NCBI GenBank assembly: GCA_016937255.1
Contig: JAFGWG010000071.1
Location: 1-50,935 of the forward strand
From: Bacteroidales bacterium
GTDB taxonomy: Bacteria > Bacteroidota > Bacteroidia > Bacteroidales > DTU049
DNA length: 50,935 bases
Direction of reading: 5' to 3'
A program made the position numbers and the translations under genes. The notes under the pieces were generated by a model that saw only the letters and a list, made by a program, of their open reading frames with translations, searched no databases and was not told the origin of the DNA. Below are positions 6,967 to 48,228 of this stretch, piece by piece; positions within the stretch are counted from its first letter, which is position 1, and each line of letters opens with the position of its first letter.

Positions 6967-8397
6967 TTAATAATACAAATCTCTTTCTCCGGCTTTCACT
7001 CTTTCAACTCTGTCGCGCAAATCTTTGGTGTCGTAACCTCCGTCTTCGAGACCTTTGAGTTCGCTTTCAATATTCTCCCAGCCTTTAACTTTGGTGTCGC
7101 TAGCAGCATAATCCATGAGATATTCTGCCAAAGTTAGAATTGCATTAGGAGTGCAGAATCGTTTTATAAATCCAGGGACAGAAAATTCCATGAAATGCTC
7201 ACCTGTTCTTCCTTTTCTATAGCAAGCTGTACAAAAGGATGGCAGGAAGTTTTTTTGAAGCAGCTCATCAATAACTTCATTAAGTGAACGACTATCGGCA
7301 ATATGAAACTGTTCTTTATTGAGATCCTGCTCTTCATTTAATGAGTCGCTATATGAACCAAGTTCGAGCTTAGTGCCTCCATCAATCTGGCTAACGCCAA
7401 AGGCAATGACTTCATCGCGAACCTGTGGCGTTTCACGAGCAGTAAGAATCAAGCCGGTGTAGGGAACAGCTAGACGTAGAATAGCAATCAAACGGGTAAA
7501 CTCTTCATCGCTTACTTGATATTTTGGGTCGAGATTCAAACCCGCTGCATCTTTAATACGAGGAAATGATATGGTGTGTGGCCCAACATTATAAACAGCT
7601 TCAAAATGGTTGGTGTGGCGGACCAAACTCATTACTTCAAAACGCCAATCGTAAAGTCCAAAAAGTGCACCAATGCCAACATCATCAATTCCTGCTTCTT
7701 GGGCACGATCGAGAGAAGTTAATCTCCAGTTATAATCTGATTTTTTTCCTGCCAGGTGATATTTCTTATAGGTTTCCTCATGATAAGTTTCCTGAAAGAC
7801 TTGATAAGTTCCAATGGCTGAGTCTTTTATTGTTCTGAAGCCTTCAATATCGAAAGGGGCTGCATTGATATTTACCCTTCGAATTTCTCCTTGCCCTTTC
7901 TTTACACTATACGTAATCTTTACTGTTTCTGCAATATATTCAGCAGAATAATCGCGATGTTCGCCGTAGACTAGAATTAGCCGCTTATGTCCATTATCCT
8001 CAAGAGCTTCAACTTCTTTAATAATCTCACTCTCATCAAGTGTTTTGCGAATTGCTTCTTTATTTGTAGAACGAAAACCACAATATAAGCAATTGTTGCT
8101 GCACTTATTCCCTATATATAATGGTGCAAACAAAACTATGCGATTGCCATATACTTTCTCCTTTAGTTGGCGAGCTCCCTCTTTAATTTCTTCAATCAGT
8201 TCAGGACTATCGGCATTTATTAACGCGGCTGTTTCTTTTAAGGTAAGTCGTTGCTTGCTGAGTGATTTAGCAATAATCTCACGCACATAATCCTTGTCGG
8301 CTTTGGTATTATCGATTAGATCCCAGAGTTCATCGGGGTCGATAAAAGGCTGCATCCGCAGATCTTCAATTTTGCATTTTTCCGGATAGAATTTCAT
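6967..8397 (-). CDS. hydG: [FeFe] hydrogenase maturase HydG (radical SAM tyrosine lyase)
   Basis: 476 residues, full length for HydG. It cleaves tyrosine to p-cresol and dehydroglycine, providing the CO and cyanide ligands of the H-cluster through an Fe(CO)(CN) synthon. The radical SAM Cx3Cx2C motif is at C99, C103 and C106 (GNKCSNNCLYCGF). The C-terminal auxiliary-cluster motif Cx2Cx22C is intact (FCTACYRKG ... RFC). Both together distinguish HydG from ThiH. It sits in a four-gene run with small TM1266-like genes on both sides. hydE, hydF and the hydrogenase itself are not in this window. The preceding stop codon is 11 nt upstream. Confidence 0.93.
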   Translation of the reverse strand: MKFYPEKCKIEDLRMQPFIDPDELWDLIDNTKADKDYVREIIAKSLSKQRLTLKETAALINADSPELIEEIKEGARQLKEKVYGNRIVLFAPLYIGNKCSNNCLYCGFRSTNKEAIRKTLDESEIIKEVEALEDNGHKRLILVYGEHRDYSAEYIAETVKITYSVKKGQGEIRRVNINAAPFDIEGFRTIKDSAIGTYQVFQETYHEETYKKYHLAGKKSDYNWRLTSLDRAQEAGIDDVGIGALFGLYDWRFEVMSLVRHTNHFEAVYNVGPHTISFPRIKDAAGLNLDPKYQVSDEEFTRLIAILRLAVPYTGLILTARETPQVRDEVIAFGVSQIDGGTKLELGSYSDSLNEEQDLNKEQFHIADSRSLNEVIDELLQKNFLPSFCTACYRKGRTGEHFMEFSVPGFIKRFCTPNAILTLAEYLMDYAASDTKVKGWENIESELKGLEDGGYDTKDLRDRVERVKAGERDLYY

Positions 8398-32043: not shown

Positions 32044-32808
32044 TTAGTTGCTATTTGGTTTTCTCGAATCTCCAGAAGCCTTTTTTTGTGTGAGTCTTTC
32101 CAGTAGTTTTAATGTATAATCAATCTCAAGGGGTTTTTTAAGAAAAGTATATGCATTTTTAGATACCGCCTTACGTGCAATATCCATGAATTCGTCTTCC
32201 ATGCCGGTAATCATAATGGCAATAGAGCTTGGCGTAATTTTTTTAATGGCTAAATAGAGATCGAGGCCATTCATGGATGGAAGATTTACATCAACAAAAA
32301 CCAGATCGAATTTAATTTGTTCCACCAATTCTAAGGCATTATGAGGAGAGTTTGTAGAAGTGACCCTATAGCCTGCATTTTTAAGCTTTTCAACCAAAGG
32401 CTTGGCAATATTCTCATCTTCCTCCACCACCAGAATAGCCGTTTCTTTTACTTCAGATATCAATTGTATGGTTTTTTGCATATCCAGTGGTTTGCTAAGA
32501 AAGGCAATTGCCCCCTCATCTAGTGCAGCATGTTTAAGGTCATCTACCGTATAAGCGCTCATCAGAATAACTTTTACCCCTTCTTTATGGCGTCTGATGC
32601 TTTTAAAAGCTTCTACTCCGTCAATACCGGGCATGCGAACATCCATAAGAACAATGTCATAGTCGTTTTCACTGCAAAGATTTATGGCTTCTTCTCCTGA
32701 AGCTGCTGAATGAACTTCGTAGCCTTCGTCTGCCATGATATCGGATAAAGTAAGCCTCATATTGGGCTCATCATCTACAATTAGAATTTTGTTAATTTCT
32801 GTCTTCAT
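32044..32808 (-). CDS. Tandem receiver-domain protein
   Basis: 254 residues: two complete receiver domains and no output domain. Receiver 1 spans about 5-120 with acceptor D56 (VLMDVRMPG) and K106. Receiver 2 spans about 124-240 with acceptor D173 (FVDVNLPSMNG); its acid pocket is EEDE. A short basic tail follows. It lies between the two giant kinases (6 nt after one, 10 nt before the other), so it is a likely phosphate shuttle or sink between them. Confidence 0.92.
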   Translation of the reverse strand: MKTEINKILIVDDEPNMRLTLSDIMADEGYEVHSAASGEEAINLCSENDYDIVLMDVRMPGIDGVEAFKSIRRHKEGVKVILMSAYTVDDLKHAALDEGAIAFLSKPLDMQKTIQLISEVKETAILVVEEDENIAKPLVEKLKNAGYRVTSTNSPHNALELVEQIKFDLVFVDVNLPSMNGLDLYLAIKKITPSSIAIMITGMEDEFMDIARKAVSKNAYTFLKKPLEIDYTLKLLERLTQKKASGDSRKPNSN

Positions 32809-32814
32809 AATATA

Positions 32815-35800
32815 TTATTCGTTTGGTAATTTGATTCTAAAGCATGCACCCGCATTTTTTTTGTCAATGAGTTCAATATGACCACCATGTTTTTCAATAA
32901 TTTGCTTACAAATGGTTAAACCCAAACCAGTGCCTTTTGCTTTTGTTGTGATGAGTGGTTCAAAAAATGTAAGTTTCACATCTTCGCTGATTCCAGGTCC
33001 ATTATCGCTGAAAATAAGTTCAGTAAAGTCGCTTTTTCTCTCATATTGAATTTTCACTTTTGTAGTGGTCTCAATAGATTGATCAGCATTTTCGAGTAAA
33101 TTTCTCAATACCTGCATTATCTGTACTCTGTCACAAAGCAATTCTCCTTTTCCATTAAGAATTTTTGTTTCAATTTCAATATTCAGATCTTTATAATGCG
33201 AGCCACTGGCATATTCAATTAATTCTTCCAGCATACATTCTTCTTTCTGCGGCTCTTTCATTTTTGTCATTTGCATCATATTACTAATAATGCGGTCGGC
33301 CGTACTTATTTCTGAGTCAATAATATTGAAATATTTAAGGATTTTGTCATCGTGTTGATTGCTTTTTCGTTTTAAGTAAAATGCTGCATTTCTAACTGCG
33401 CCTAAAGGATTTCGTAAGTCGTGGGCAATGGTTGCCGATACCTGTCCAACAGCTGCAAGACGGGTAGAGCGTATAAGCGCATCTTTGGTTTTATTCAGCT
33501 CGGCCTGCACCATTTCTTTTTCATGTTTTTCAATCTCGAGCAGCTTTCTTTCCATCTCACGCTCATGAGTAATATCTTGAATTACACCAAAAATTTTATT
33601 GCCGTCCTTATCATATTCTGCGATACTATGAATCATTAGAATGGCTCCGTCGGTTTGCCTCTCAATTTCAAATTCAATATCGTATTTTTCTTTTTCGTTA
33701 ATCAATAATTCTAGTTTTCTATCAAGTTCTTGTCTATACTTCTGCATAGGGATAGATTGTATATCACTCAGCATTAGTTTTTTATCGAGGGGGAAGCCAT
33801 ATGTTTTTCGGGCTCCTGCTGATGCGAATACCTCTTTTGTATTCAAATCAATGCCCCAGTTTCCAAAACCGGCTACTTCCTCAGCACGCTTTAGAGATGC
33901 TTCACTTTCCAGAATTGAGAGTTCGAATTTTTTTCGTTCTGTAATATCGGTTATCGTACCTACATAGCCTTTCAATTCACCGTCTTTTATTTCAGGAACA
34001 GCCCGCCCGCTAATCCAAACAATACGACCGTTTCGATGCAAAAATCTGTATTCGGAAGAACTGATGGTTTGGTTTTTATTTGCTTGTTTCCATCCTAGCA
34101 TGGCATGGTCGTAGTCGTCGGGGTGTATGGCTTTAGTCCATTTATAACCCATAGCTTCATCGGGGTTCAAATCGGTAAGCTCGCACCATTTCGGATTTAC
34201 ATACGTTGTTTCTCCTTTTTCATTGCATCTGAAAATACCAACGGGACTATTGTCGGCAAGTGTTTTAAATAGTGCCCTGCTCTCAAATAATGCATTTTCG
34301 GATTCTTTCTTCTTTGTAATATCTTCAACAAAACCCAGATATTCGTTTTCACTAAGTTTTACTGCCGATACCGTCCACCAACCAATGTTTCCGTTTTTTT
34401 GCAAATATTCGGTTTCGTAAACAGAATGCCCTGTGTTTTGTAATTCATTAAAAGATTCAAAGGCCTCTTTCTTTCTGTTTTCAGGCATAAGATCCGGAAT
34501 AGACATTGTCAATAATTCGCTCTCAGAATATCCCGTTATTTTTGAGGCCATTGGGGTAACTTGCAAATATTCACCCTTATTGTTGGCAATAAAAATGCCG
34601 TATGGTGCATGATTGAAATAGCTTCTTATTTTTATTTCACTTTCACGAATGGCTTCTTCCTGCTGTTTTCTTTCTGTAATATCGGCAATAGAGACTAATC
34701 CTGCATCTTTTCCCCGATACTGAATATTGGTTCCGGTAAGATAAACCCATTTGATATTGCCGTTTTTGGTGATGATTCTGAATTCATAAGACGATGTTGC
34801 TTCATTACCCTTTTGCCTTTCTTGGCCGCTTTGCCTAACTTTATCCATGAAATCTGGATGTACAAATTTCCAAAAATTCATTGAATACAATTCATCTGAA
34901 CTATAACCGGAAATTTTTTCTCCGGCAGGATTGGTATATACCCACTTGTTGTTTTGATAAATCATAATGGCAAACGGACTGTTTTCGGCCAACAGTCTAA
35001 ATTTTTCTTCACTCTCGCGAAGTCTTTCAGCCATTTCCTTCTCATTGGTAATATCGCGCGAAATAGCCAATATGCTTTGTGCATTTTCGTTTTTGTCGCG
35101 AATAAATGACGCTGTACTTTCAATCCATAGTAAACGCCCGTCTTTATGATACTCTTGTACAACAATTGTTCGGCTTCGGTCGGGGTTGGCCATACCGTTT
35201 TTTTCCAATTCCATTTCTTCGTTCAGCATTTTCAAAATACTGGCAATGGATTCTTTTGGAAAAATATCGTACACTGAAAGGTCTAAATATTCATTAACAT
35301 GATAGCCAAGTAATTTCTTTATAGAAGGACTCACATAGGCAAAACTAAGATCTAAGTTGATAATGGTAATGGTATCGGCAGTGTTTTCGGCTATTAGACG
35401 GTATTTTTCTTCGCTTTCTCTAACTCGTATTTCATTTTTCTTTAACTCAGTTATATTATGTGCAATAATAGCAATGTTTTCTTTCATCGGTACTACCACA
35501 ATGCGAAACCAAGTTTTTGTTTTCATGGTTTCACCAATATATGAATCTTCAAAAGTTATCGATTTTCCTGTTTCAGCAACTTGTATGTATGCATTCCAAA
35601 ATTGTGTTCCTTTTATTCCCGGAAATAGCTTCAGAAAACTTTGACCCACTACTTTCTGAGGATCGGTTCCGTTCATTTTTGCAACTGCCGCATTTTGATA
35701 AACCCAGGTAAAATCGATAATACGGTTCTGAATATCGCGAACAGGTTTAAAAATGGTAAAACCATCGGGTGAATTATCCTGAGCAATACGGAAACGTTCA

Positions 35801-38800
35801 TCAATTTTGCGTTTTTGCTCTAATGCATTTTTTAATTCTGTAATATCTTGATTAACAATTATCGCCGCCTGCAGTTCGTTGTCGTCATTATATACCGGCG
35901 CAGTATAATTAAGAATAATCCTTTTCTGATTATCAAATGCCTCAATTTCCAATATCTCATCTTCGGTGGTTTCACCTTTGGTAATGGTTTTATATAACGC
36001 CCATTCTTCGGGTTTCAGGTATTTATCACTGTCCATCTTTCTGGCTTTAAATACGCCATACGCACTGGGATCTACCAATGGCTCGGCTCCCCATATTTCT
36101 CTGCCTTTTTTATTGCTCCTAAAAAGTTTCCCATTTTTATCGGCAAGCCATAAACCTATAGGAAGAATATCAATAATTTTGTTTAATAGGTTTTCTCTCT
36201 TTTTTAGTTCAATTTCTGCTTTTCTCTTTTCAGTAATATCAATTACACTTCCATCAAAATACTTAATTTTACCATGCTGATCTTTAACAGCCACTGCTCT
36301 TTCTTCGAGCCATATCACTTTGCCACTTTTTGTTAGCCAAGAAGAAATGTCTTCATAAACATCATTATTTTCAAAGTGATTAACAAAAGCATTTCTATCT
36401 TCTGGATTTACGTAGCCGGTTTGTATTTGTAGCGTTTTAAGATCATTAATATTATTGTATTCAAGCATTTCAGCCAAAGCCGTATTGGCATCGAGGATTT
36501 CACCAGATAAAGTGCTTCTGTAGAGCCCAATAGGATTATTTTCGTAGAGTTTTCTGTATTTCTTTTCGCTTTGTCTTTTTTGATCTTCAGCCTGTACCCT
36601 GGCCAGTGAAATGGAAGCTATATGTGAATATGAAATTAGAAAATCGTCTGGAGTTTGCGCCGTTTCATCTTTTTGTGCAATTAATGCTGTACCAACCAAT
36701 GAACCTTCATTAATAAAGGTGATTACTGTGAAGTTTTTTAACCCTGAGATAGAACTAAAAGTTTTTGAAATAGCTTTAGAAATAGCTCCTTGACTTAATT
36801 GATGGAGAGAAATGCTGTGCTTGAGCGATGTGTGGATCATCTCATTATATGTTTCTTCATCTAATTGTGTTTCAATTTCGAATACATTTTTTCCAATTAG
36901 TTTCTCAAAGGTGTTTAATAATTTATGGTTACAATCAATTTTTACGGGGGTGAGTTTCATTTCATTTTGATCAAATCGATTAAAAACCAACACATCTGCA
37001 TTAATAAATGATTTTAAGTGTTCTAGTATTCGGGTAATGGTTAATTCAAAAGTATTTGCTGAAGTTAGTTCTGTACTAAATTGATTAAGCTTTTCTAAGA
37101 TAATATTCTTTTTTTCTATGTTTTCTTGTGCAATTATTCGCTCTGTAATATCGCGAGTTGATCCCTGTAAGCCAATTATTTTGCCGTTTTCATCGAACAT
37201 GGGTTTACCAATGATTTCAACAGGTAATTCGGATCCGTCTTTTTTAAGTATTGCCGAAGTAATGTTTGCGAATCCGAATTTCTTATAATTTTTAATGGTT
37301 CGTAGGGCAATGCGAGCCATTTTTATAAACTCTTTTCGGGAAGAATGACTCCATAATGGTGTGCCTATCCATTCCTCGGGCTCAAAACCAGTAAGTTCTT
37401 TTAGCGATGGACTCAAGTATGTAAATTTTAGTCTCAAATCCATTTGCCATATTACATCAATAGAGTTCTTAGCTATGAATCGGAATTTTTCTTCGCTTTT
37501 GCTTATCAGGTTTTCTTGGTTTTTACTATACGTAATATCTTGAGCAAGAATAGCTATGTTTTCAATCATAGGAACAACAACTATTCGAAACCATATCGTT
37601 TTATTCTCTAATTCATCAAACAATGCTTCTTCAATGGTTTTGTTTTTTCCAGTTTCTGCAACAGTTTTATAAGTTTTAAAAAAGACTGTTTTTTTATGGT
37701 CGGGGAACAAATCCAATAATCGTTTGCCAACTACTTCTTCAGGATGGGTTCCATTTAGTTTTGCTATAGAAGCATTCTGATATACCCAAATAAAATCAAC
37801 AACTTTGCCTTGTTTATCAAAAACGGGTTTAAGAATTGTAAAACCATCCGGCGACATATCCATGGCAATTCGAAAACGCTCGTCGCTTTTTCGTTTTTCC
37901 TCCTCTGCTTTTGATTTTTCGGTAATATCCTGAAAAGTGCCTTTTAATTGTGTTGTTTTTCCATCAATCACTTCCGGTTTGCACATGGTGCGAGTGATAA
38001 GATGATTTCCTTTTGCCGTAATAAATCGTAGAGTTAGGTCGTAAGGCTCTCCATTTTCTATTGCATTATTTGTCGCTTTTATTAAAGTTGGTTGATCATC
38101 TGGATGAAAAAACTCAATGGCTTTGTCTAAGGTGGGGCTTTGATCTGGTGAAACTTCATGAATTTTATATGTTTCGTCCGACCAGGTTAGTTCATTATTT
38201 TCCAGGTTTATTTGCCATCCGCCAATCCGTGCCATTTTGCCTGTATCACTGAGCAATTGGGCTTTTTCTTTAAGTTCAGTTTCAGCTATTTTCTTGTCGT
38301 TGATATCTCGGGCAAAGACCATAGCCCCATTTAACCCTTCAAAAACTATAGGCTCCCCGCTGGTTTCTACCCATACTTCAGTTCCGTCGAGTCTTAGGTA
38401 GCGCTGTTCGTAAATATTTGCAACACTCTTTCTCTCTATGTTTATTTGCTTTATTCTGTTTTTAATTTCTTCGTGATAATTGGGGTGGAAGAAATCAAAT
38501 ACATTTTTACCAACCAGTTGCAACTCGCTATCGGCTCCAAAAAGTTTTAGTGAGGCTTTGTTTACGTAGGCAAATTTTAAATTGGATTGAATGAAGATTG
38601 GAATGGGAGCATTTTCAATCATGTGCCGAAAACGCTTTTCGCTTTCATGCAATTTGTCAAGTGCAATTTGGGTTTTGGTTATATTTACAACATTGCCTTC
38701 GAAATATAATATCTTTCCGTTTTCATCGTGTATAGCTACTGCTCTTTCTTCCAACCAAATACTTTTGCCGCTTTTTGTTTTCCATTGCGATTTTCCTTCA

Positions 38801-40350
38801 TAATAATCGTGATTATTGAAATATTCAATAAAATGTATTCTGTCTTTACTGTTTAAATAACCCTCTTCAACACTAATTTTTTGTAAATCCTCTAAACTGT
38901 TGTATTCCAGCATTTTTACCAAAGCAGGATTTGCATCGAGAATTTTACCATTTGGAGTGGTTCTGTATATTCCGCTGGGTATATTTTCAAATAATTCTCT
39001 GTATTTTTTTTCGCTTTTTTCTAATTCTCTTTTAATGGATATTTCATTGGTAATATCGCGTGTTACACCATGCAACCCAATTAAATTAGACTCTTCATCA
39101 AAAAATGGAGTAACTATAATTTCGCCTGTTTTTATCTCTCCGTCTTTACACTTATAATCGAGTATTAATCGCTTGGAATAGTTTTTTGGTAATTTCTTAA
39201 TATATGTATATGCAAAAAGCTCCTGCTCAAGTGATTTTCGGGCTATTTTTGCCGATTCTTCGGTAAAACGTTCTTCAATGGTTTGATTTAGATATTCTTC
39301 TTCTGTATATCCGGTGAAATTAATAACAGAAGGGCTTACAAATAAACTCTTTCCCTTCAAATCCATAAGCCAAACTACGTCTGTGGCTTTCTCGGCAATG
39401 ATATGATATTGCCTTTGCGATTCAGCAAGCGCTTTTTCGGTATGCTTTCTAGTGCAAATATCGCGGGCAATTCCTGAAAGCTCTATGGGCTCACCGGCAT
39501 TGTTAAATATTAATTTTCCGGCATGGGCCTCAATGTAATGAATGGATCCATCGGGCCATACCACTCTGTATTCTAGTTCCTGAGGCTTTTTATTATTGAT
39601 TACCGCTAAATTCGATTTTTCAACAGTTTCTCTATCGTCGGGATGTATGCTACGACCAATAATTTCATTTAAATCACCTGATACATTTTCTTTTTCCAGC
39701 CCAAACAACTTATACATTTCATCGTTCCATTCCACACGGTTTTTTTCAATATACCATGTCCATATTCCCAAATGTCCTGCATTTTGTACTTCATGAAGCA
39801 AAGAAGCATTTCTTTCGGCTATTTCTGTAATGGCCATTTCATTGCTAATGTCGAGAATGGCAATTTTTACAAGCTCATTTTCCGGAAGACTGAATATTCG
39901 TGTGTGTATCTTGTGCTTTTTTTTATCGAGAAAACTTATAACCGTACTATTGCGCAATTTATCTTTGAAGGCTTTGCGTAAAAACAAGTATAACTCGTCT
40001 TGTGATTCTGGTGCAATATGTTTTTCAATGCGTTTGTTGCAAATAAGATTGGGTGGAATTGCCAATAAATCGCACGCGGTATTGTTAATATCTGTTACTA
40101 TAAAGTCTTTGTTTACAATAATATACCCAAGTGGCGATTTGTTGAAAAATTCTGTATAACGCTCCTTTTCCTGAAAGAGCTTCTCTTGCGTTTCAATCAA
40201 CTCTTTGTTTTGATATTCCAATTCAATCTGATATATACTCAACTCTTCTACAAGCTCTTCTAAACTCATTTGATACAGATGATTGTCTTTGCCTTTTTTG
40301 TTTTTTAGCAGTTCGAGTGCTTTTTGTCTCAGATCGTCGGCTTTGGGCAT
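32815..40350 (-). CDS. Giant cytoplasmic PAS histidine kinase (about 16 PAS modules)
   Basis: 2511 residues and no membrane segment. After an N-terminal helical segment come about 16 PAS/PAC modules from residue about 70, each followed by DIT/RDIT-type linkers. A GAF-like domain sits near the middle (about 1120-1295). The C-terminus is a HisKA domain with H2310 (IAHDLRNPLG) and a HATPase domain (DNGPGIS, GTGLGLTICK). Two PAS pairs are near copies of each other: modules 4 and 9, and 7 and 11. The kinase core closely matches that of the 752-residue kinase at 48585. It is followed 6 nt later by the tandem-receiver gene. The ligands are unknown. Confidence 0.9.
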   Translation of the reverse strand: MPKADDLRQKALELLKNKKGKDNHLYQMSLEELVEELSIYQIELEYQNKELIETQEKLFQEKERYTEFFNKSPLGYIIVNKDFIVTDINNTACDLLAIPPNLICNKRIEKHIAPESQDELYLFLRKAFKDKLRNSTVISFLDKKKHKIHTRIFSLPENELVKIAILDISNEMAITEIAERNASLLHEVQNAGHLGIWTWYIEKNRVEWNDEMYKLFGLEKENVSGDLNEIIGRSIHPDDRETVEKSNLAVINNKKPQELEYRVVWPDGSIHYIEAHAGKLIFNNAGEPIELSGIARDICTRKHTEKALAESQRQYHIIAEKATDVVWLMDLKGKSLFVSPSVINFTGYTEEEYLNQTIEERFTEESAKIARKSLEQELFAYTYIKKLPKNYSKRLILDYKCKDGEIKTGEIIVTPFFDEESNLIGLHGVTRDITNEISIKRELEKSEKKYRELFENIPSGIYRTTPNGKILDANPALVKMLEYNSLEDLQKISVEEGYLNSKDRIHFIEYFNNHDYYEGKSQWKTKSGKSIWLEERAVAIHDENGKILYFEGNVVNITKTQIALDKLHESEKRFRHMIENAPIPIFIQSNLKFAYVNKASLKLFGADSELQLVGKNVFDFFHPNYHEEIKNRIKQINIERKSVANIYEQRYLRLDGTEVWVETSGEPIVFEGLNGAMVFARDINDKKIAETELKEKAQLLSDTGKMARIGGWQINLENNELTWSDETYKIHEVSPDQSPTLDKAIEFFHPDDQPTLIKATNNAIENGEPYDLTLRFITAKGNHLITRTMCKPEVIDGKTTQLKGTFQDITEKSKAEEEKRKSDERFRIAMDMSPDGFTILKPVFDKQGKVVDFIWVYQNASIAKLNGTHPEEVVGKRLLDLFPDHKKTVFFKTYKTVAETGKNKTIEEALFDELENKTIWFRIVVVPMIENIAILAQDITYSKNQENLISKSEEKFRFIAKNSIDVIWQMDLRLKFTYLSPSLKELTGFEPEEWIGTPLWSHSSRKEFIKMARIALRTIKNYKKFGFANITSAILKKDGSELPVEIIGKPMFDENGKIIGLQGSTRDITERIIAQENIEKKNIILEKLNQFSTELTSANTFELTITRILEHLKSFINADVLVFNRFDQNEMKLTPVKIDCNHKLLNTFEKLIGKNVFEIETQLDEETYNEMIHTSLKHSISLHQLSQGAISKAISKTFSSISGLKNFTVITFINEGSLVGTALIAQKDETAQTPDDFLISYSHIASISLARVQAEDQKRQSEKKYRKLYENNPIGLYRSTLSGEILDANTALAEMLEYNNINDLKTLQIQTGYVNPEDRNAFVNHFENNDVYEDISSWLTKSGKVIWLEERAVAVKDQHGKIKYFDGSVIDITEKRKAEIELKKRENLLNKIIDILPIGLWLADKNGKLFRSNKKGREIWGAEPLVDPSAYGVFKARKMDSDKYLKPEEWALYKTITKGETTEDEILEIEAFDNQKRIILNYTAPVYNDDNELQAAIIVNQDITELKNALEQKRKIDERFRIAQDNSPDGFTIFKPVRDIQNRIIDFTWVYQNAAVAKMNGTDPQKVVGQSFLKLFPGIKGTQFWNAYIQVAETGKSITFEDSYIGETMKTKTWFRIVVVPMKENIAIIAHNITELKKNEIRVRESEEKYRLIAENTADTITIINLDLSFAYVSPSIKKLLGYHVNEYLDLSVYDIFPKESIASILKMLNEEMELEKNGMANPDRSRTIVVQEYHKDGRLLWIESTASFIRDKNENAQSILAISRDITNEKEMAERLRESEEKFRLLAENSPFAIMIYQNNKWVYTNPAGEKISGYSSDELYSMNFWKFVHPDFMDKVRQSGQERQKGNEATSSYEFRIITKNGNIKWVYLTGTNIQYRGKDAGLVSIADITERKQQEEAIRESEIKIRSYFNHAPYGIFIANNKGEYLQVTPMASKITGYSESELLTMSIPDLMPENRKKEAFESFNELQNTGHSVYETEYLQKNGNIGWWTVSAVKLSENEYLGFVEDITKKKESENALFESRALFKTLADNSPVGIFRCNEKGETTYVNPKWCELTDLNPDEAMGYKWTKAIHPDDYDHAMLGWKQANKNQTISSSEYRFLHRNGRIVWISGRAVPEIKDGELKGYVGTITDITERKKFELSILESEASLKRAEEVAGFGNWGIDLNTKEVFASAGARKTYGFPLDKKLMLSDIQSIPMQKYRQELDRKLELLINEKEKYDIEFEIERQTDGAILMIHSIAEYDKDGNKIFGVIQDITHEREMERKLLEIEKHEKEMVQAELNKTKDALIRSTRLAAVGQVSATIAHDLRNPLGAVRNAAFYLKRKSNQHDDKILKYFNIIDSEISTADRIISNMMQMTKMKEPQKEECMLEELIEYASGSHYKDLNIEIETKILNGKGELLCDRVQIMQVLRNLLENADQSIETTTKVKIQYERKSDFTELIFSDNGPGISEDVKLTFFEPLITTKAKGTGLGLTICKQIIEKHGGHIELIDKKNAGACFRIKLPNE

Positions 40351-40425: not shown

Positions 40426-43400
40426 CTAATTTGGTTTAACAATTTCCTCAAAAGTAGTATATGCCATATAGGTATTTTTACCTGTTTTTAATGGATATGC
40501 ATTTATTTTAATCCACACATGTTTTTTAATTTTAGGATTGTAAATGCCCATTACTACATTCTCAATTACCTTTCCTGTTTTAAGTGCTTGCATAGATGGA
40601 TGCTGCTCGCCGGGAAAATTACTTCCGTCTACTCGAATAGATTTCCAATCAGGATCGATAGACTTTTTGCCGTTCATTTGATCTATGCTTAACCCGAGAA
40701 TTCTTTCTGCAGCCGGGTTAACTTGAGTTATTTCACCATTTTTATTCTGAAAAACAACGCCAATTTTAATGGTATTAAATAATAATTGAATACGATTTTC
40801 AGTTTCAATAATTTTATTGTCGGCTATTTCTAATTCTCTGCTATGTTTTTTTTCAATTTCTTTTTCTTTTGAGGTATTCATTATAATGCCAATAAGCTTC
40901 ATAGCTTTGCCGTTTTTTCCTTTTTTAACAACACTGCCTTTGTCTAAAACAAAAATATAATGACCATCTTTATGTTTTACTCTGTATTCGACGGAGAAAT
41001 TTTTTGTTTTTCCTTTTAAATGTTCTTCCAGTTTGCTTTGAACCACCGATTTATCTTCGGGATGAATTAATTTTTGCCATTCAGTAAAAGAATCTCCAAT
41101 TTCACTTTTTCTATATCCTAGTAATTCATGACGCAAATTACCACTTACAATATTATCGTTTTCAATATCCCATTCCCACCAGGTCATTTCGCCCACTTCA
41201 AGGGCCATTTTTAAACGAATATTCAAATCAATGTTTTCCAGTTGGGTGTTTTTTAATGAAGAAATTTCAACAAAAGTGATTAATATACCTTCGACCGCGT
41301 TTTCTACTGTACGGTATGGTTTAATCCTTGTTAAATACCAATTTCCGTCGACTGTTAATACTTCCCTGTCAATGGTATCTAATGTGTCAAAAACATGTTG
41401 TATGTCTGCATTAAAACCTTTGTAAAAATTATCGAGTGCAAATTGCTTAATTGACCGGCCAATATCCTGTTGAATTATTTTTGTAAGCTGCGATGCAATA
41501 TTGTTAACCTTGCGAATATGCATTTTTCTGTCAATAAACAAAGTGCCAGATTGGGTATTGGCGAGTAAGTTGTCTAAATCGGAATACAATTCATTTATCT
41601 CTTCAATTTTTTTAATGTGCTCTGCATTCACGGTATACAATTCTTCATTTACCGATTGAAGTTCTTCATTGGTGCTTTGCAATTCTTCGTTTGATGCAAT
41701 AAGCTCTTCGTTCGATGATTGTAATTCCTCATTTGACGTTTCAAGCTCTTCTACAGTGGCTTGTAAACTTTCACTTTTGTGCTGTAACTCCCTTTCCAAA
41801 TCATCAATTCGCTCTATGTATTGCTTATTGATATCCTGACTCTTGATTTTTACCGACTCGTCAATGAGGTTTTTTTGCTCTTTTTCAATAAATGCAATTA
41901 GAAAATATACTTCAGAGGAGCTTTTGTGAATAATTTTGCGACAAGAAATACTTAGTGAAGAGACTTCGTTTTTTAAAACATTGTCGAATGTTAGAGGCGT
42001 GTTGCTTTTATCTACGCGTCGAATAAGACCATTGATGATGACAGAAAGATCCTTGTTGAGCATTTTTAACAAATTAATGCTCATTTGACCAATTGGAAAT
42101 TGAAGGTATTTATTTACATTGTGAATGGTGTGTACAATATTATAGTTTGAGTCTGTTAAAACAGCCGGAGGGAAATAATCGCCAAGTATTTCATCGAAAA
42201 TATCTTCAAGCACCAAGGGTTTGTTTTTCGTGTTTGTTAAATAGGGATTTATACTTTTTAAATGGTAAGTGTCGCGGTGAGTTTTTGGTGTTCCAAAATG
42301 TAATATACCTGTAGGTGTATAACCTTTTTTATACGAATAAATTTTGTTTTTGCTGTCTAGAGTGTAAAAAGCATCAGAAAGCTCACCAAGCGATTCACTG
42401 CTGCCAAGAAACATGTACCCGTTTTCTTTTAGGGCGAGGTGAAATGTAGCCAATACTTTAGTTTGGCTTTCGTTGTTAAAGTAAATAAGCAGGTTTCGGC
42501 AAGAAATAAGATTAATTTTTGAAAATGGTGGATCTTGCAAAACGTTGTGCTTTGCAAAAACAATCATGTTGCGAATAGGCTCGATAATCTGGTACCCGTT
42601 TTCTTTATTTATGAAAAAGCGCACCAGCCGATCGGGGGTAAGATCGGTACTGATATTTGTGGGGTAAATACCTGTACTTGCAAATTCTATTGAGCTCGGG
42701 TCTAAATCAGTAGCAAAGATTTTTACACTTCTAATGTCTTTGTTTTCATGCATATATTCGTTTAAAATAATAGCTAAAGAATATGCTTCTTCTCCGGTAG
42801 AACATCCAGGAACCCAAAGTCTGATATCGCTGTTTTTATCGACAGCACTAAAAATTTTTGGAAAAATGTCTTTTTTAAGTTTTGCAAAAGATTCTTCTTC
42901 TCTAAAAAAGCGCGTAACCCCAATGAGCATTTCGTTAAAAAGAATTTCAATTTCTTTGTCGTTTCCGGTAAGAAACATTACATAGTCATTAATGTTTATA
43001 AATTGATTTATGCTCATTCGCTTTTCCAATCTGCGAACTATTGTACTTTCTTTATAATTGCTAAAATCAACACCTTTGTTTTCACGAATAATAGCCATTA
43101 TTTTGTCAAGACCGGTTTCGTTTTTTTCAAGAATCTGAACAATCTTTTCTTTTGTTTTAACAAATGGGTGTTTTATATAATTAATGAGTTCTTCTGCCAA
43201 TGTATTGGGAGGAGAAATAATATCGATAACGCCTGTATTTATTGATGACTTAGGCATTCCATCGAATTTTGCACTTTGATCGTCTTGTGCCATGGTAATA
43301 CCCCCGAACTCTTTAATATCTCTAATACCTAAGGCTCCATCACTTCCGGTGCCGCTTAATACTATGGCAATGGCGTTTTTATGCTGGTCTTTGGCCAATG

Positions 43401-43800
43401 ATCGAAAAAAAATATCGATAGGTAGGTTTAATGTTCGTTTTTTGTCTTGCTCTGATAGTTGAAGCTTTCGATTGAAAATACTCATGTTCATCTTCGGTGG
43501 GATAAGATAAATATGATTGCATTCAACATTCATCCCATCACTAGCCACATGTATAGGAATATTTGTATAGCGCTGCAAAAGTTCTTTCATAAGACTTTTG
43601 TAATCGGGCGATAAATGCTGAATAATAACAAAAGCTGCCCCCGGATTATTGGGTAAATTTTTAAAAAACTCTTCAAGAGCTTCCAGCCCTCCGGCCGATG
43701 CACCAATTCCAACAATCGGATAATCATTTATTACAGGCACAATTTGGTCTCTTTCTGAATTCGTTGCTTTGCTTTTATCTGAAGTTTTTTGCCGGCTCAT
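40426..43800 (-). CDS. CheB-CheR-PAS fusion protein
   Basis: 1124 residues. A CheB-type methylesterase domain (about 25-205) has the triad S35 (GASAGG), H62 (QHLSPD) and D154 (GTGSDGA) but no receiver domain. A CheR-type methyltransferase domain (about 230-495) has the SAM motif [13 protein letters not shown] (332-344) and the [14 protein letters not shown] region. Then come a PAS-like block, a coiled coil (about 655-745) built of seven-residue units around SNEELQ, and three C-terminal PAS domains. There is no histidine kinase domain, unlike many related fusions. A promoter precedes it, and the giant kinase gene follows 75 nt later. The methyl-accepting target is not in this window. Confidence 0.9.
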
Positions 43801-43957: not shown

Positions 43958-44716
43958 TTATTTTTGAATGTGTTTTTCTTTTAAAAAAACCAAATAAACT
44001 GGTTCCCAGTTTTTATTTTGAAACGATTTGCTTAAAAAAACTTCTACCGTAGATGTATTTTTATAATAATCGAATATGTCAAGAGTGAATGAAGGTATTT
44101 TTTCAATTTCGTTAATCAAACTAAACATTTCATTCCATTTTTTTTTGTTCTTGTCATTAAATAGGTCATTTATGTTCATTTTTAGAATATTAACTTCTTT
44201 ATTAGCAAGTAGATGTTCAAATGCTTCGTTGCATGAAATAATGTCGCAGGTTTGGTTTATAGTGATGATAGGGTCATTTGAATAAGTAAAAATGTGGTTG
44301 TATCTTTTTTCAAGATCTCTGTGCTTTCTTTCCAAATCAGAAACCCTGAAAATGAGTGAAATCTTGTCGATAAACTCGCTTATTTGTATAGGTTTAGTCA
44401 TGTAATGAATTGCACCTAATTCAAGTGCATTTTTTAAATCGCTTGCCTCTTTTTTTATCCCCGACATTTGAATTATTGGAGTATTCCTGAATTTTTCCAT
44501 TGCAAGAACTTCCTCAATTAATTCGCTACTGTTTCCGTCGGGCAGCATTACATCCATTATTATAAGATCAGGCTCTAATTCTACGATGGCATTTCTTGCA
44601 CTTGCTATTGTTGTACTGTCTCTAACGAAATAGTTTTGTGCTTCCAATAGCTTTTTTAAGGCATTCCTTAACGGTGCTTCATCTTCAAGCAAGACAATAC
44701 TTTTTGGGTTTATCAT
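43958..44716 (-). CDS. Receiver-PAS response regulator without DNA-binding domain
   Basis: 252 residues. Receiver domain about 1-125 with acidic pocket LEDE and acceptor D55 (IIMDVMLPDG), and the conserved lysine in MTKPIQ. Then a linker helix and a PAS-like domain (about 130-245; YSNDPIITINQTCDIISCNEAFEHLL). No output domain. Its ATG overlaps the stop of the kinase gene by 4 nt, so it is the natural phosphotransfer partner of that kinase. Confidence 0.88.
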   Translation of the reverse strand: MINPKSIVLLEDEAPLRNALKKLLEAQNYFVRDSTTIASARNAIVELEPDLIIMDVMLPDGNSSELIEEVLAMEKFRNTPIIQMSGIKKEASDLKNALELGAIHYMTKPIQISEFIDKISLIFRVSDLERKHRDLEKRYNHIFTYSNDPIITINQTCDIISCNEAFEHLLANKEVNILKMNINDLFNDKNKKKWNEMFSLINEIEKIPSFTLDIFDYYKNTSTVEVFLSKSFQNKNWEPVYLVFLKEKHIQK

Positions 44717-45891
44717 GTGTTTAAATTTTTGGAAAAATGTACGGTAAAAATAGTGTTTTCGTTGGGTACCGACTCGGTAATAATACTTGCTTTATGTGCA
44801 TCGAGTATTCTTTTTACAATGAAAAGCCCTAGCCCTGTGCCTTTTTCTTCACCAGTTCCATTGGATTGTTTGGTAAAAGGTTTAAAGATTGTGTCAATTT
44901 TATCCGGTGGAATACCAATTCCGGTGTTTTCTATACTCAGTTTTATTTTTGATTTTTCTTCGATAAGGGTAACAATGATTTTTGTGTTTTCGAAAGAAAA
45001 TTTTATGGCATTTCCGATCAAATTTTGTAAAACTTGTTCAATTTTCATGTCGTCGGCTTGCAGAACGCATTGATCGGAGATTGAATTGAAAACGATTTCA
45101 ATCTTCTTTTCACTTGCTCTGTGCTGTAATACAGAAATGGTTTTCTGAATGGCTTTGCAAAGATCAAATTCACGGATATTCAGTTCAACCTGTCCCGATT
45201 CAATTTTTCCGTATTCAAGTAAATCATCTACTAGGGAAAGCATGAAACTTGCTGAATCATTAATGACCTTGAGGAATTGCTTTTGAGAATCGCTGAGATC
45301 AGCTGCTTCGCACTCAACCATTTCACTATAAAGCATGATGCTGTTTAATGGGTTTCGTAAGTCATGAGCAGCCATGCTGATAAAACGGTTTTTGATTTCG
45401 TTGAGTTTATGCAGCTGAACATTCTTTTTATTTAGCTCTCTTTGTGTATTCACCAATTCGTTATTCAGCTTCGATATTTCATCGAATATTTCCTCCGATT
45501 CTTTTGAATCTTCTTTAACCATTTGCTTTATAAGTTTTCTGATTTGATTCGATTGTTCATTGTTTATGGCTTTCAATTGTTCCGACAATTCTATGGCTTC
45601 GTGATGGTTGTCGGCTCCAATAACAAGAAATTCACCGCCAATTTCCATACACATGAAATATAAATCATCAAATTCTTCATTGTATTTTAATCGCAAACGA
45701 TAATCGAAAGCCACTTTATTTTGCCGTACTTCTGTTAGCATATTTAATGCAGATGAAACGGATTCGGGTTTAATCAAACTGGTAAACATAATGGAAATAT
45801 CGCTCGGAATCATTTCGAAATCATCCTTAAACACATGGGTAATGGTTCCGTTTTCATTGCAAATAAAAGCACAACCTTTAATTTCGTTCAT
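44713..45891 (-). CDS. PAS-like sensor histidine kinase
   Basis: 392 residues, no membrane segment. N-terminal PAS-like domain (about 1-105; CAFICNENGTITHVF), coiled coil (about 100-165), HisKA with H176 (MAAHDLRNPLNS), HATPase (about 270-385; GNAIKFS N-box, TGIGIPPDK, GTGLGLFIVKRIL). It starts 11 nt after the B12-binding protein gene and overlaps the receiver-PAS gene by 4 nt. Gene order makes the B12 protein its likely sensory partner; that is inferred from neighbourhood only. Confidence 0.92.
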   Translation of the reverse strand: MNEIKGCAFICNENGTITHVFKDDFEMIPSDISIMFTSLIKPESVSSALNMLTEVRQNKVAFDYRLRLKYNEEFDDLYFMCMEIGGEFLVIGADNHHEAIELSEQLKAINNEQSNQIRKLIKQMVKEDSKESEEIFDEISKLNNELVNTQRELNKKNVQLHKLNEIKNRFISMAAHDLRNPLNSIMLYSEMVECEAADLSDSQKQFLKVINDSASFMLSLVDDLLEYGKIESGQVELNIREFDLCKAIQKTISVLQHRASEKKIEIVFNSISDQCVLQADDMKIEQVLQNLIGNAIKFSFENTKIIVTLIEEKSKIKLSIENTGIGIPPDKIDTIFKPFTKQSNGTGEEKGTGLGLFIVKRILDAHKASIITESVPNENTIFTVHFSKNLNT

Positions 45892-45902
45892 GGTTAGTTA
45901 TA

Positions 45903-46952
45903 TTATATAAATGAATTTGCGAGTTTAATAGCAGATTCTGCATCTGCAGCATATCCATCGGCATTAATTTTATTGCGGCTTTCACCCAATGCATTAATGG
46001 CATATCCGCCGATAAGGATTTTTACCGAGCCGTTTAGTTCCTCACGTACGCTTGCAATGTAATCGTTTAATGTCGACAAATGGTATGGTATGGCCACAGA
46101 AAGCGCAAGAACTTTGGCATCGTTTTCTTTTATGGCCGAAATAATACTGGGCAGGGGAGTGTTGGCGCCCATAAAATAGGTATCCCATCCATCCATTTCA
46201 AAAAAGTCGGCCACCATTCGTATTCCTATTTCGTGCAACTCACTTCCTACACTTGCCGCAACCATATTGGCACCTTTTTTCTCTGTGTCAAAAATATAGT
46301 GATATAATTGCGACATTATTTGCTGGGTTGCAGCAGAGCAATAATGCTCTTTGGCAATAGAAATCTTGTTTTCTAGCCATAGACGACCAATTTCATATTG
46401 AGATTTTTGAAAAACATTCATGTAAATATCTTTCACAGGGATGCCACTGTCAACAGCTTTAAGCACAAGATCTGATGCTTTTTTTCGATTGGCACTTAGC
46501 AATGCAGCAATGTATTGTCGGGCAAGTTCATCTTTTGGGGCAATGGCATCAATATATCTCTGCTGATTAGCAACTTCTTTGTTCATTTGTTCGATACCGG
46601 CAAAAATAAACGGGTGTATTTGGTCGTAAATATCCTTTGGAAATTCTGCCTTGATCACTTCATCTGTGCATTGCAGTGTTACAATCATTACTTCATCCGG
46701 AAAATTAAGGCCCCGGAATAGTTTTTTTACCCAAGCCACGTAATTGGTAAAAATTGCCGGATCTTGAAGTTCAATGGCTTCTGCTAAAAAAGGAATATGG
46801 TATCCGGCATCGCGAATAGAAATCATTCGTCCTTTAGATCCATAAGGTTTCCAGAATTTTGACTGCAATTTGTACTGCAATTCCACAATTTTTTCTGCCA
46901 ATAATGGGGCTTTGCCAATTAATAAAGCTCTAATATTAATATCTTTATTCAT
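45903..46952 (-). CDS. Stand-alone cobalamin-binding sensor protein (CarH/LitR-type B12 domain, no DNA-binding domain)
   Basis: 349 residues. An unrecognised helical N-terminal domain (about 1-130) precedes the B12-binding-2 helical cap (about 140-220) and a Rossmann-type B12-binding domain (about 225-349). The cap has W192 with E202-H203, i.e. the W-x9-EH motif that shields the upper ligand of adenosylcobalamin in CarH-type photoreceptors. The Rossmann domain has E238-x-H240-x2-G243 (ELHEIG), whose histidine is the lower cobalt ligand, and GWDTYFMGANTP. CarH and LitR carry a MerR helix-turn-helix ahead of these domains; here it is absent. It overlaps the radical SAM gene by 8 nt and precedes the kinase gene by 11 nt. 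Light or B12 status sensing is inferred. Confidence 0.85.
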   Translation of the reverse strand: MNKDINIRALLIGKAPLLAEKIVELQYKLQSKFWKPYGSKGRMISIRDAGYHIPFLAEAIELQDPAIFTNYVAWVKKLFRGLNFPDEVMIVTLQCTDEVIKAEFPKDIYDQIHPFIFAGIEQMNKEVANQQRYIDAIAPKDELARQYIAALLSANRKKASDLVLKAVDSGIPVKDIYMNVFQKSQYEIGRLWLENKISIAKEHYCSAATQQIMSQLYHYIFDTEKKGANMVAASVGSELHEIGIRMVADFFEMDGWDTYFMGANTPLPSIISAIKENDAKVLALSVAIPYHLSTLNDYIASVREELNGSVKILIGGYAINALGESRNKINADGYAADAESAIKLANSFI

Positions 46953-48228
46953 GTTGTGATGGGTTTTGTGATTGGTTGTGCAGAAATATTGACTCGATTA
47001 GAAATGAAGCGATATTTGCAGTCCAGAAACGCCCTTTCTGAGTCAAATGATAAGCATTTCTTTTCGGTGAAACTAAATCTATTGAAATCAGTTTATCGAT
47101 GCACTTGATTATATTTTGGGGTAGTTGCTTCACGTAGTCTTTGTTAATGGATAGTATTTCGGGAAGTTCCAATAAAGTATCAAATATAGTGAAGTTTTCA
47201 GATATTTTGAATGTTTTTGCTGCTTCAAACACTGAAATATTCGCAGTTTCGATGTATTTTTCAATATCATTAACAGTGAAGTATCTGAAAGGACCGTATT
47301 TTCCACCCGAACCACATCCAAATGCATGAATATTGGCACCTGACGAAACAGAATAAACGTATGAGCTACTGCCTATAGTTTTGCTATTGTATTGATGTGC
47401 AGTAAGTCTTTTCCAATTCAATTCTGAATCTAAATAATCATCAATAATTTTATAGAGTGAAAACTCATTCTCATGGTTTTCCGAATCGTTATTGCTGGTC
47501 GAATCTTTCTTTTTCGAGAAGTCAATGAGAGGGTATATACTGCAACCTGAAAGATCCAGTTTCTTCATTTGCTCAAGATCGTCTTGAATGATTCTTTTTG
47601 TTTGGTTTTCAAGATTATAGATCAGGTCGATGAAAACATTATCGAAATGATTTCTGACTTTTGTAATTCTCTCAATTACAGTTTCTTTAGCTGTGATTCT
47701 TCCAATAGACTTCCTTATTTCCGTGTCGAATGTTTGAACGCCAAAGCTAATTCTGTTAAACTGACTCTTTGATAAATGATACAAGTAGTCGTCTGAAATA
47801 TCGCAAACAGAACATTCAAGTGTGATTTCGCAGTTTGTTTGTAATGTATAGTGTTTGTTTATGATGTTCAGCGTTTTTTCTATATATGAAATGGGGACCG
47901 AACTGGGGGAGCCCCCTCCAAAATATACTGCTGAAATACTCTTTGAAAAGTTAATCAGTTTTGCATGCTCGATAATTTGCCTTTCCAGTACTTGAAAATA
48001 AGACTTTATCATATCTTCATTATAGTCGTTTTTTGCATAAACACAAAATGAGCATTTTTTTTTACAAAAAGGAATATGAACATATAATACAGAATTTTTG
48101 CTTTTAGATGTATTTATAAAATGAATAAGATCCTTTATTTGTGCATGTTGCAAAGGAAGTTTTCGCAAAGCTTCAGCTCTGGAGCGAATTCTGGTTTGAA
48201 AACCTATGTCTTTATTTAGTATTGCCAT
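46945..48228 (-). CDS. HemN/HemW/HutW-like radical SAM protein
   Basis: 427 residues. The radical SAM cluster motif Cx3Cx2C is at C55, C59 and C62 (FCKKKCSFCVYAK), with the GGG(S/T)P motif at 104-108. The segment RISFGVQTFD at about 159-168 is characteristic of the HemN/HemW branch. The region GCGSGGKYG (304-312) is closer to the GAGG of heme-utilisation HutW/ChuW proteins than to HemW. The family acts on porphyrins or heme: coproporphyrinogen decarboxylation, heme insertion or anaerobic heme breakdown. Which of these applies cannot be settled. It is the first gene of the B12-sensor operon and overlaps it by 8 nt. Confidence 0.82.
   Translation of the reverse strand: MAILNKDIGFQTRIRSRAEALRKLPLQHAQIKDLIHFINTSKSKNSVLYVHIPFCKKKCSFCVYAKNDYNEDMIKSYFQVLERQIIEHAKLINFSKSISAVYFGGGSPSSVPISYIEKTLNIINKHYTLQTNCEITLECSVCDISDDYLYHLSKSQFNRISFGVQTFDTEIRKSIGRITAKETVIERITKVRNHFDNVFIDLIYNLENQTKRIIQDDLEQMKKLDLSGCSIYPLIDFSKKKDSTSNNDSENHENEFSLYKIIDDYLDSELNWKRLTAHQYNSKTIGSSSYVYSVSSGANIHAFGCGSGGKYGPFRYFTVNDIEKYIETANISVFEAAKTFKISENFTIFDTLLELPEILSINKDYVKQLPQNIIKCIDKLISIDLVSPKRNAYHLTQKGRFWTANIASFLIESIFLHNQSQNPSQHE

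Follow-up and report, generated by a model that had tools for sequence, protein, structure and literature searches.

A four-gene operon encoding a photocobilin

The window, a 50,935-nucleotide stretch of DNA from a Bacteroidales bacterium, contains four minus-strand genes (43958-48228) that overlap or nearly abut one another. In order, they encode a HutW/ChuW-like radical SAM protein (46945-48228, 427 aa), a B12 protein (45903-46952, 349 aa), a cytoplasmic histidine kinase (44713-45891, 392 aa) and a protein with receiver and PAS domains (43958-44716, 252 aa). The radical SAM and B12 genes overlap by 8 nt, a gap of 11 nt lies between the B12 and kinase genes, and the kinase and receiver-PAS genes overlap by 4 nt; ORF calls reproduced the coordinates, minus-strand order, overlaps and gap given in the original prediction. 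Scanning for promoters and terminators yielded no more sites than were found in shuffles. Directly downstream (40426-43800 and 32044-40350) lie genes for a CheB-CheR-PAS protein, a 2511-aa multi-PAS kinase and a double-receiver protein, which may belong to one signalling cluster with the operon.

Pfam analysis of the B12 protein identified PF02607 at residues 144-216 and PF02310 at residues 230-342. The corresponding adenosylcobalamin (AdoCbl)-binding domain (45906-46547, minus strand) comprises a helix bundle with W192 and E202-H203 and a Rossmann part with the motif E238-x-H240, in which His240 is the axial residue. W192, E202, H203 and H240 were invariant across 82 relatives, and GRLW-type, EH and GANTP-type motifs recurred throughout, so these residues are conserved rather than matched by chance. 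The W and EH adenosyl pocket accompanies light-labile AdoCbl in CarH and photocobilins. The window genome also encodes methylmalonyl-CoA mutase, which implies that AdoCbl is used by this organism. No MerR-type DNA-binding domain was found in the B12 protein by Pfam, family-model or fold searches, as had been predicted, and a CarH-like repressor was rejected for this reason.

Analysis of the remaining part of the protein revealed a second sensory domain that the description as a CarH-like B12 sensor had missed; the AdoCbl photosensor residues and the lack of a DNA-binding domain were correctly recognized, but residues 1-125 form a phycobiliprotein-like globin, or photoglobin, domain (46569-46952, minus strand). 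When these residues were searched against the PDB as a profile, they matched allophycocyanin (E = 3.4e-8) and the globin of the SasPcob photocobilin (E = 3.3e-6). Modelled alone, the domain reached a pLDDT of 95.9, and its fold matched those of allophycocyanins and of smURFP, a bilin protein (TM scores of 0.81-0.84). The AlphaFold2 model of the full-length protein had a pLDDT of 93.8, and the best fold match to its B12 half was photocobilin 8j2w (rmsd 1.8 A over 209 columns). Overall, the closest solved structures were photocobilins, in which one receptor binds AdoCbl as well as biliverdin. In the window protein, S45-I-R47-D48 replaces the CxRD motif of phycobiliproteins. There is no cysteine at this position, and any bilin would therefore be held non-covalently, as in SasPcob. 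D48 aligns with SasPcob Asp270, a key biliverdin residue (PMC10979010), in the alignment with the solved relatives, with the numbering offset derived from Glu71-His72. It was invariant in a 58-row alignment of the domain and at least 90% conserved in the 82 proteins, in which W74 was invariant. Because its N-terminus is a phycobiliprotein-like globin, we identify the B12 protein as a photocobilin of the kind with a C-terminal B12 domain, a kind already present in the published family (PMC10979010). This assignment is well supported, and binding of bilin and AdoCbl, as well as a response to light, are predicted from sequence and structural models.

Haem-opening enzymes beside the receptor gene

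The best family model for the radical SAM protein was TIGR04107 (HutW), which scored 258.7 bits, more than 110 bits above the next model; the HemW and HemN models scored 137.9 and 132.1 bits, respectively. The curated equivalog cut-off of TIGR04107 is 400 bits, and we therefore refer to the protein as HutW-like and not as HutW. Pfam assigns it to Radical_SAM, and it contains the CxxxCxxC motif (C55, C59 and C62). A loop of GAGG type, which reads GSGG in the window, and a C-terminal G-x-FW-x-N motif are both shared with annotated HutW proteins and with homologues from Fusobacterium and Cetobacterium; the C-terminal motif is missing from the HemW rows. The sequences were too divergent for a radical SAM tree to place it among the HutW, Fusobacterium-type and HemW proteins. 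A separate HemW-type protein is encoded on another contig of the window genome. No haem uptake, HutX or anaerobilin reductase genes were identified among the scanned neighbours of the window's radical SAM gene. HutW-type enzymes open haem anaerobically to yield the linear tetrapyrrole anaerobilin, which is monitored at 445 and 795 nm (PMC10404700). By these sequence comparisons, the protein is probably a HutW/ChuW-like, O2-independent haem opener with a predicted linear tetrapyrrole product. The original prediction rightly placed this gene next to, and overlapping, the B12 gene, but assigned it no role, although it proved to be the most informative part of the operon. Elsewhere in the window, an unlinked gene (6967-8397) encodes a 476-aa radical SAM and BATS-domain protein that is of ThiH/HydG type by its domains.

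A public-genome scan recovered 319 relatives of the receptor, and the best 80 of the 319 were analysed together with the window and others. Neighbouring genes were typed by clustering and by a six-frame profile search; the latter recovered short ABM genes that lie under antisense ORFs. This analysis revealed a haem-opening gene from one of three unrelated families beside many of the 82 photocobilin loci, which span many phyla: HutW-like radical SAM at 10, haem oxygenase (PF01126) at 6 and small ABM proteins (PF03992) related to IsdG/HmuQ at 27. No haem-opening gene lay alongside the receptor at 39 of the 82 loci, and two families were never found at a single locus among the 82. Where present, the gene was upstream of the receptor gene, mostly within 15-320 nt; one of the ten radical SAM loci was divergent and about 0.8 kb away, and among the six haem oxygenase loci four were divergent and two in line. 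Upstream of the radical SAM gene at one locus (L036:11688-12812) is a glucose/sorbosone dehydrogenase-like gene, and a related fragment occupies the same place at L059.

When the enzyme labels were mapped onto a tree of the 82 receptors, 14 changes were counted compared with 36 in shuffles. Three Desulfobacterales loci, two with haem oxygenase (L071 and L072) and one with radical SAM (L082), form a single clade (support 100/99), within which L072 and L082 group together (100/95). Within this well-supported clade, radical SAM takes the place of a haem oxygenase. The L072 haem oxygenase is cut by the contig end and scored 20.3 bits, under the cut-off, and the ABM match at L084 is weak, in two pieces and at 25 bits; omitting both loci shifts the tallies by one each, and the swap then rests on L071 and L082. 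Taken together, these data reveal a three-way exchange of unrelated haem-opening families beside the receptor gene. This exchange at one locus of unrelated enzymes with like known chemistry is our main reason for regarding the radical SAM enzyme as a candidate pigment maker. Residue 47 of the bilin pocket was Arg at all ten radical SAM loci, all six haem oxygenase loci and none of the 27 ABM loci, a suggestive pattern that matches enzyme type but is confounded with phylogeny. Among the loci lacking such a gene are the two nearest relatives of the window and nine of the 18 Bacteroidales-clade loci; at such loci the pigment may come from elsewhere, or none may be used.

We also examined the genome-wide background of these genes. 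When 50 of the genomes with these loci were compared with the public HutW model, seven matches exceeded 226 bits (240-292 bits), and every one adjoined a photocobilin; the next match scored 225 bits. Among 393 genomes of the window's order, 12 encoded a full-length photocobilin and four the linked radical SAM type (560-631 bits), with a photocobilin adjacent in all four. By our own arithmetic, the chance of this adjacency is approximately 5e-7, rising to 2e-5 when the window genome is excluded; because some of these genomes supplied rows of the model, the informative result is that the search turned up no unlinked copy. Haem oxygenase was present in ten of 79 named genomes, in five of them directly beside a photocobilin; the five genomes with an unlinked copy were four Paenibacillus and one Thiotrichaceae. 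None was found in the window genome or in six relatives with photocobilin-type proteins. The window genome encodes cytochrome bd, and COX1 was not found in it. It gave no match to ferrochelatase, and its haem would therefore have to come from scavenging or from a different route of synthesis, with scavenging the probable source. A restriction of the radical SAM version to strict anaerobes was considered and rejected, since haem-copper oxidases were found in several of the radical SAM-linked genomes.

Kinase linkage and signalling output

The kinase contains HisKA and HATPase_c domains (Pfam scores of 70 and 89 bits). The receiver-PAS protein matched PF00072 at 61.6 bits and PAS_9 at 26.2 bits, just under the cut-off, and Pfam identified no DNA-binding or other output domain in it. 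In all four proteins, the hydrophobic stretches are too weak to form a membrane helix (the 19-residue Kyte-Doolittle maximum for the kinase is 1.02), and the pathway therefore looks cytoplasmic. A related kinase gene starts no more than 200 nt downstream of the receptor gene at 74 of 83 loci. In addition, one Verrucomicrobiales contig (L126, 9932-12532 and 5404-9249) encodes two divergent photocobilins fused to PAS and kinase domains, one of which also carries receivers and Hpt. The photocobilin-kinase link is well supported, and the conserved neighbourhood together with these fusions argues for direct signalling from receptor to kinase. Gene order, whose conservation the original prediction had made one of its tests, is conserved across phyla for the receptor and kinase and recurs at ten loci for the radical SAM and receptor genes; its suggestion that the signal passes by protein contact to a two-component kinase is most likely right, given this linkage and the two fusions.

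A proposed light-sensing pathway and its alternatives

We propose, with a probability of about 0.6, that the operon encodes a two-component pathway that senses light and supplies its own pigment independently of oxygen. In this pathway, the HutW-like enzyme would open haem to a linear tetrapyrrole, either anaerobilin or a relative. Within the photocobilin, the N-terminal globin would bind this bilin without a covalent link and the C-terminal domain would bind AdoCbl; light absorbed by either pigment would break the Co-C bond of AdoCbl and change the dimer state. This change would alter the activity of the kinase encoded next door, its proposed direct partner, which would in turn phosphorylate the receiver-PAS protein as the proposed phospho-acceptor. 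We infer that the enzyme makes a bilin, and likewise which bilin, its binding, the photochemistry and the direction of kinase control. A more specific form of this proposal, to which we give somewhat less than even odds, is that the bilin is anaerobilin, made from haem without O2 by the co-transcribed enzyme and absorbing near 445 and 795 nm beside the green band of AdoCbl. Bacteria of anoxic sediments could then sense near-infrared light, and the receptor family would pair with whichever of the three unrelated haem-opening enzymes suits its host.

Light might instead be sensed through AdoCbl alone, with the globin structural or vestigial and the radical SAM enzyme recycling haem iron or handling porphyrins. 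About half of the relatives have no adjoining haem-opening gene, which is consistent with such a scheme, and AbDPcob binds biliverdin poorly, with approximately 20% occupancy (PMC10979010), and the globin may therefore not carry a bilin in every case. The conservation of W74 and D48 argues against this scheme, however, as does the recurrence of three unrelated haem-opening families at one place, and the window's radical SAM gene has no haem-uptake genes beside it; we consider this explanation unlikely. Slightly less probable is a receptor that responds to the supply of B12 and of haem (or a haem product) rather than to light, and informs the kinase of that supply. Ferrochelatase was not matched in the window genome, yet this genome encodes cytochrome bd and a B12-dependent mutase, and tetrapyrroles may therefore be scavenged and worth sensing. 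A plain sensor of B12 levels would not need the adenosyl pocket of W192 and E202-H203, which is invariant in the 82 relatives.

Membership of the same superfamily, and the HemW and HemN model scores, could also mean that the radical SAM protein is HemW/HemN-like, acting as a haem chaperone or on coproporphyrinogen, and is unconnected with bilins. This is marginally less probable again, as the HutW model is better by more than 110 bits, a separate HemW-type protein is already encoded in the genome, and the C-terminal motif is that of HutW-type proteins. Matches of MtgC/MtbC corrinoid models to the C-terminal half of the B12 protein are the basis for a last alternative, a corrinoid methyl carrier of a methyltransferase system. 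We rejected this as highly improbable, because the operon contains no methyltransferase gene and the adenosyl pocket is kept; the conserved kinase neighbour and the additional bilin-type globin domain also argue against it.

We compared the operon with the closest known systems. The window protein shares with CarH/LitR the AdoCbl pocket and axial His, but it lacks the MerR DNA-binding domain and has an extra globin domain and a proposed kinase partner. To our knowledge, bilin photoreceptors obtain their pigment through haem oxygenase, which ties them to O2. The requirement of haem oxygenase for oxygen has been noted as a puzzle, given that oxygenic photosynthesis relies on bilins (PMC10151467). 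Like SasPcob and AbDPcob, the window protein has an AdoCbl domain, a phycobiliprotein-like globin, the W/EH/His residues and the biliverdin Asp (PMC10979010); unlike them, it adjoins a HutW-like radical SAM enzyme and a separate kinase in a genome where no haem oxygenase was found, and its domain order is swapped relative to SasPcob. Association of bilin-binding globins with B12 proteins and a haem-opening enzyme is published for the BBAG-2 clusters (PMC10151467), in which the globin is encoded apart from the B12 protein and both occur with an O2-dependent haem oxygenase and with pre-PcyA, whereas in the window the two are fused and the enzyme is of the radical SAM type. The CxxxCxxC motif, best family model and C-terminal motif are those of the HutW/ChuW/HmuW anaerobilin synthases (PMC10404700); in contrast to these, the window enzyme scores under the curated cut-off and lies beside a photoreceptor and a kinase, not haem uptake genes.

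The photoglobin/photocobilin receptor kind is thus already known, and the gene set, which had been predicted to be undescribed, is so in its radical SAM version only. The most relevant prior work is reportedly the photoglobin family paper of Schneider 2022; no report of a HutW-type enzyme linked to a photoreceptor was found in the literature searched, that paper lying outside the search. The radical SAM version and the three-way enzyme exchange look new; the exchange was computed here, and the biochemistry is what we infer. If the proposal is true, this would be the first known light receptor with a bile-type pigment made without oxygen. A photoreceptor supplied with bilin by an O2-independent route would establish that anoxic life can sense light through bilins, would inform the question of how bilin proteins originated and would extend the function of HutW-like enzymes past iron acquisition. 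Anaerobilin, with its bands at 445 and 795 nm (PMC10404700), is also a possible near-infrared pigment for optogenetics.

Other arrangements of the receptor were observed among the related loci, and two scans of viral contigs yielded no relatives. In a Lokiarchaeota MAG (L120) and in the anaerobic phototroph Heliobacterium (L102 and L104), the photocobilin adjoins kinase genes with no haem-opening gene beside it. Two Bacteroidales loci (L040:7593-9847 and L041:474-2669) carry a split version, in which a free B12 protein of approximately 210 aa and a kinase are followed by a 145-158 aa protein that has no Pfam match and is weakly photoglobin-like in L040. On a plasmid of Ilyobacter polytropus (L158:7824-9867), a photocobilin-like gene overlaps the gene for a GGDEF protein.
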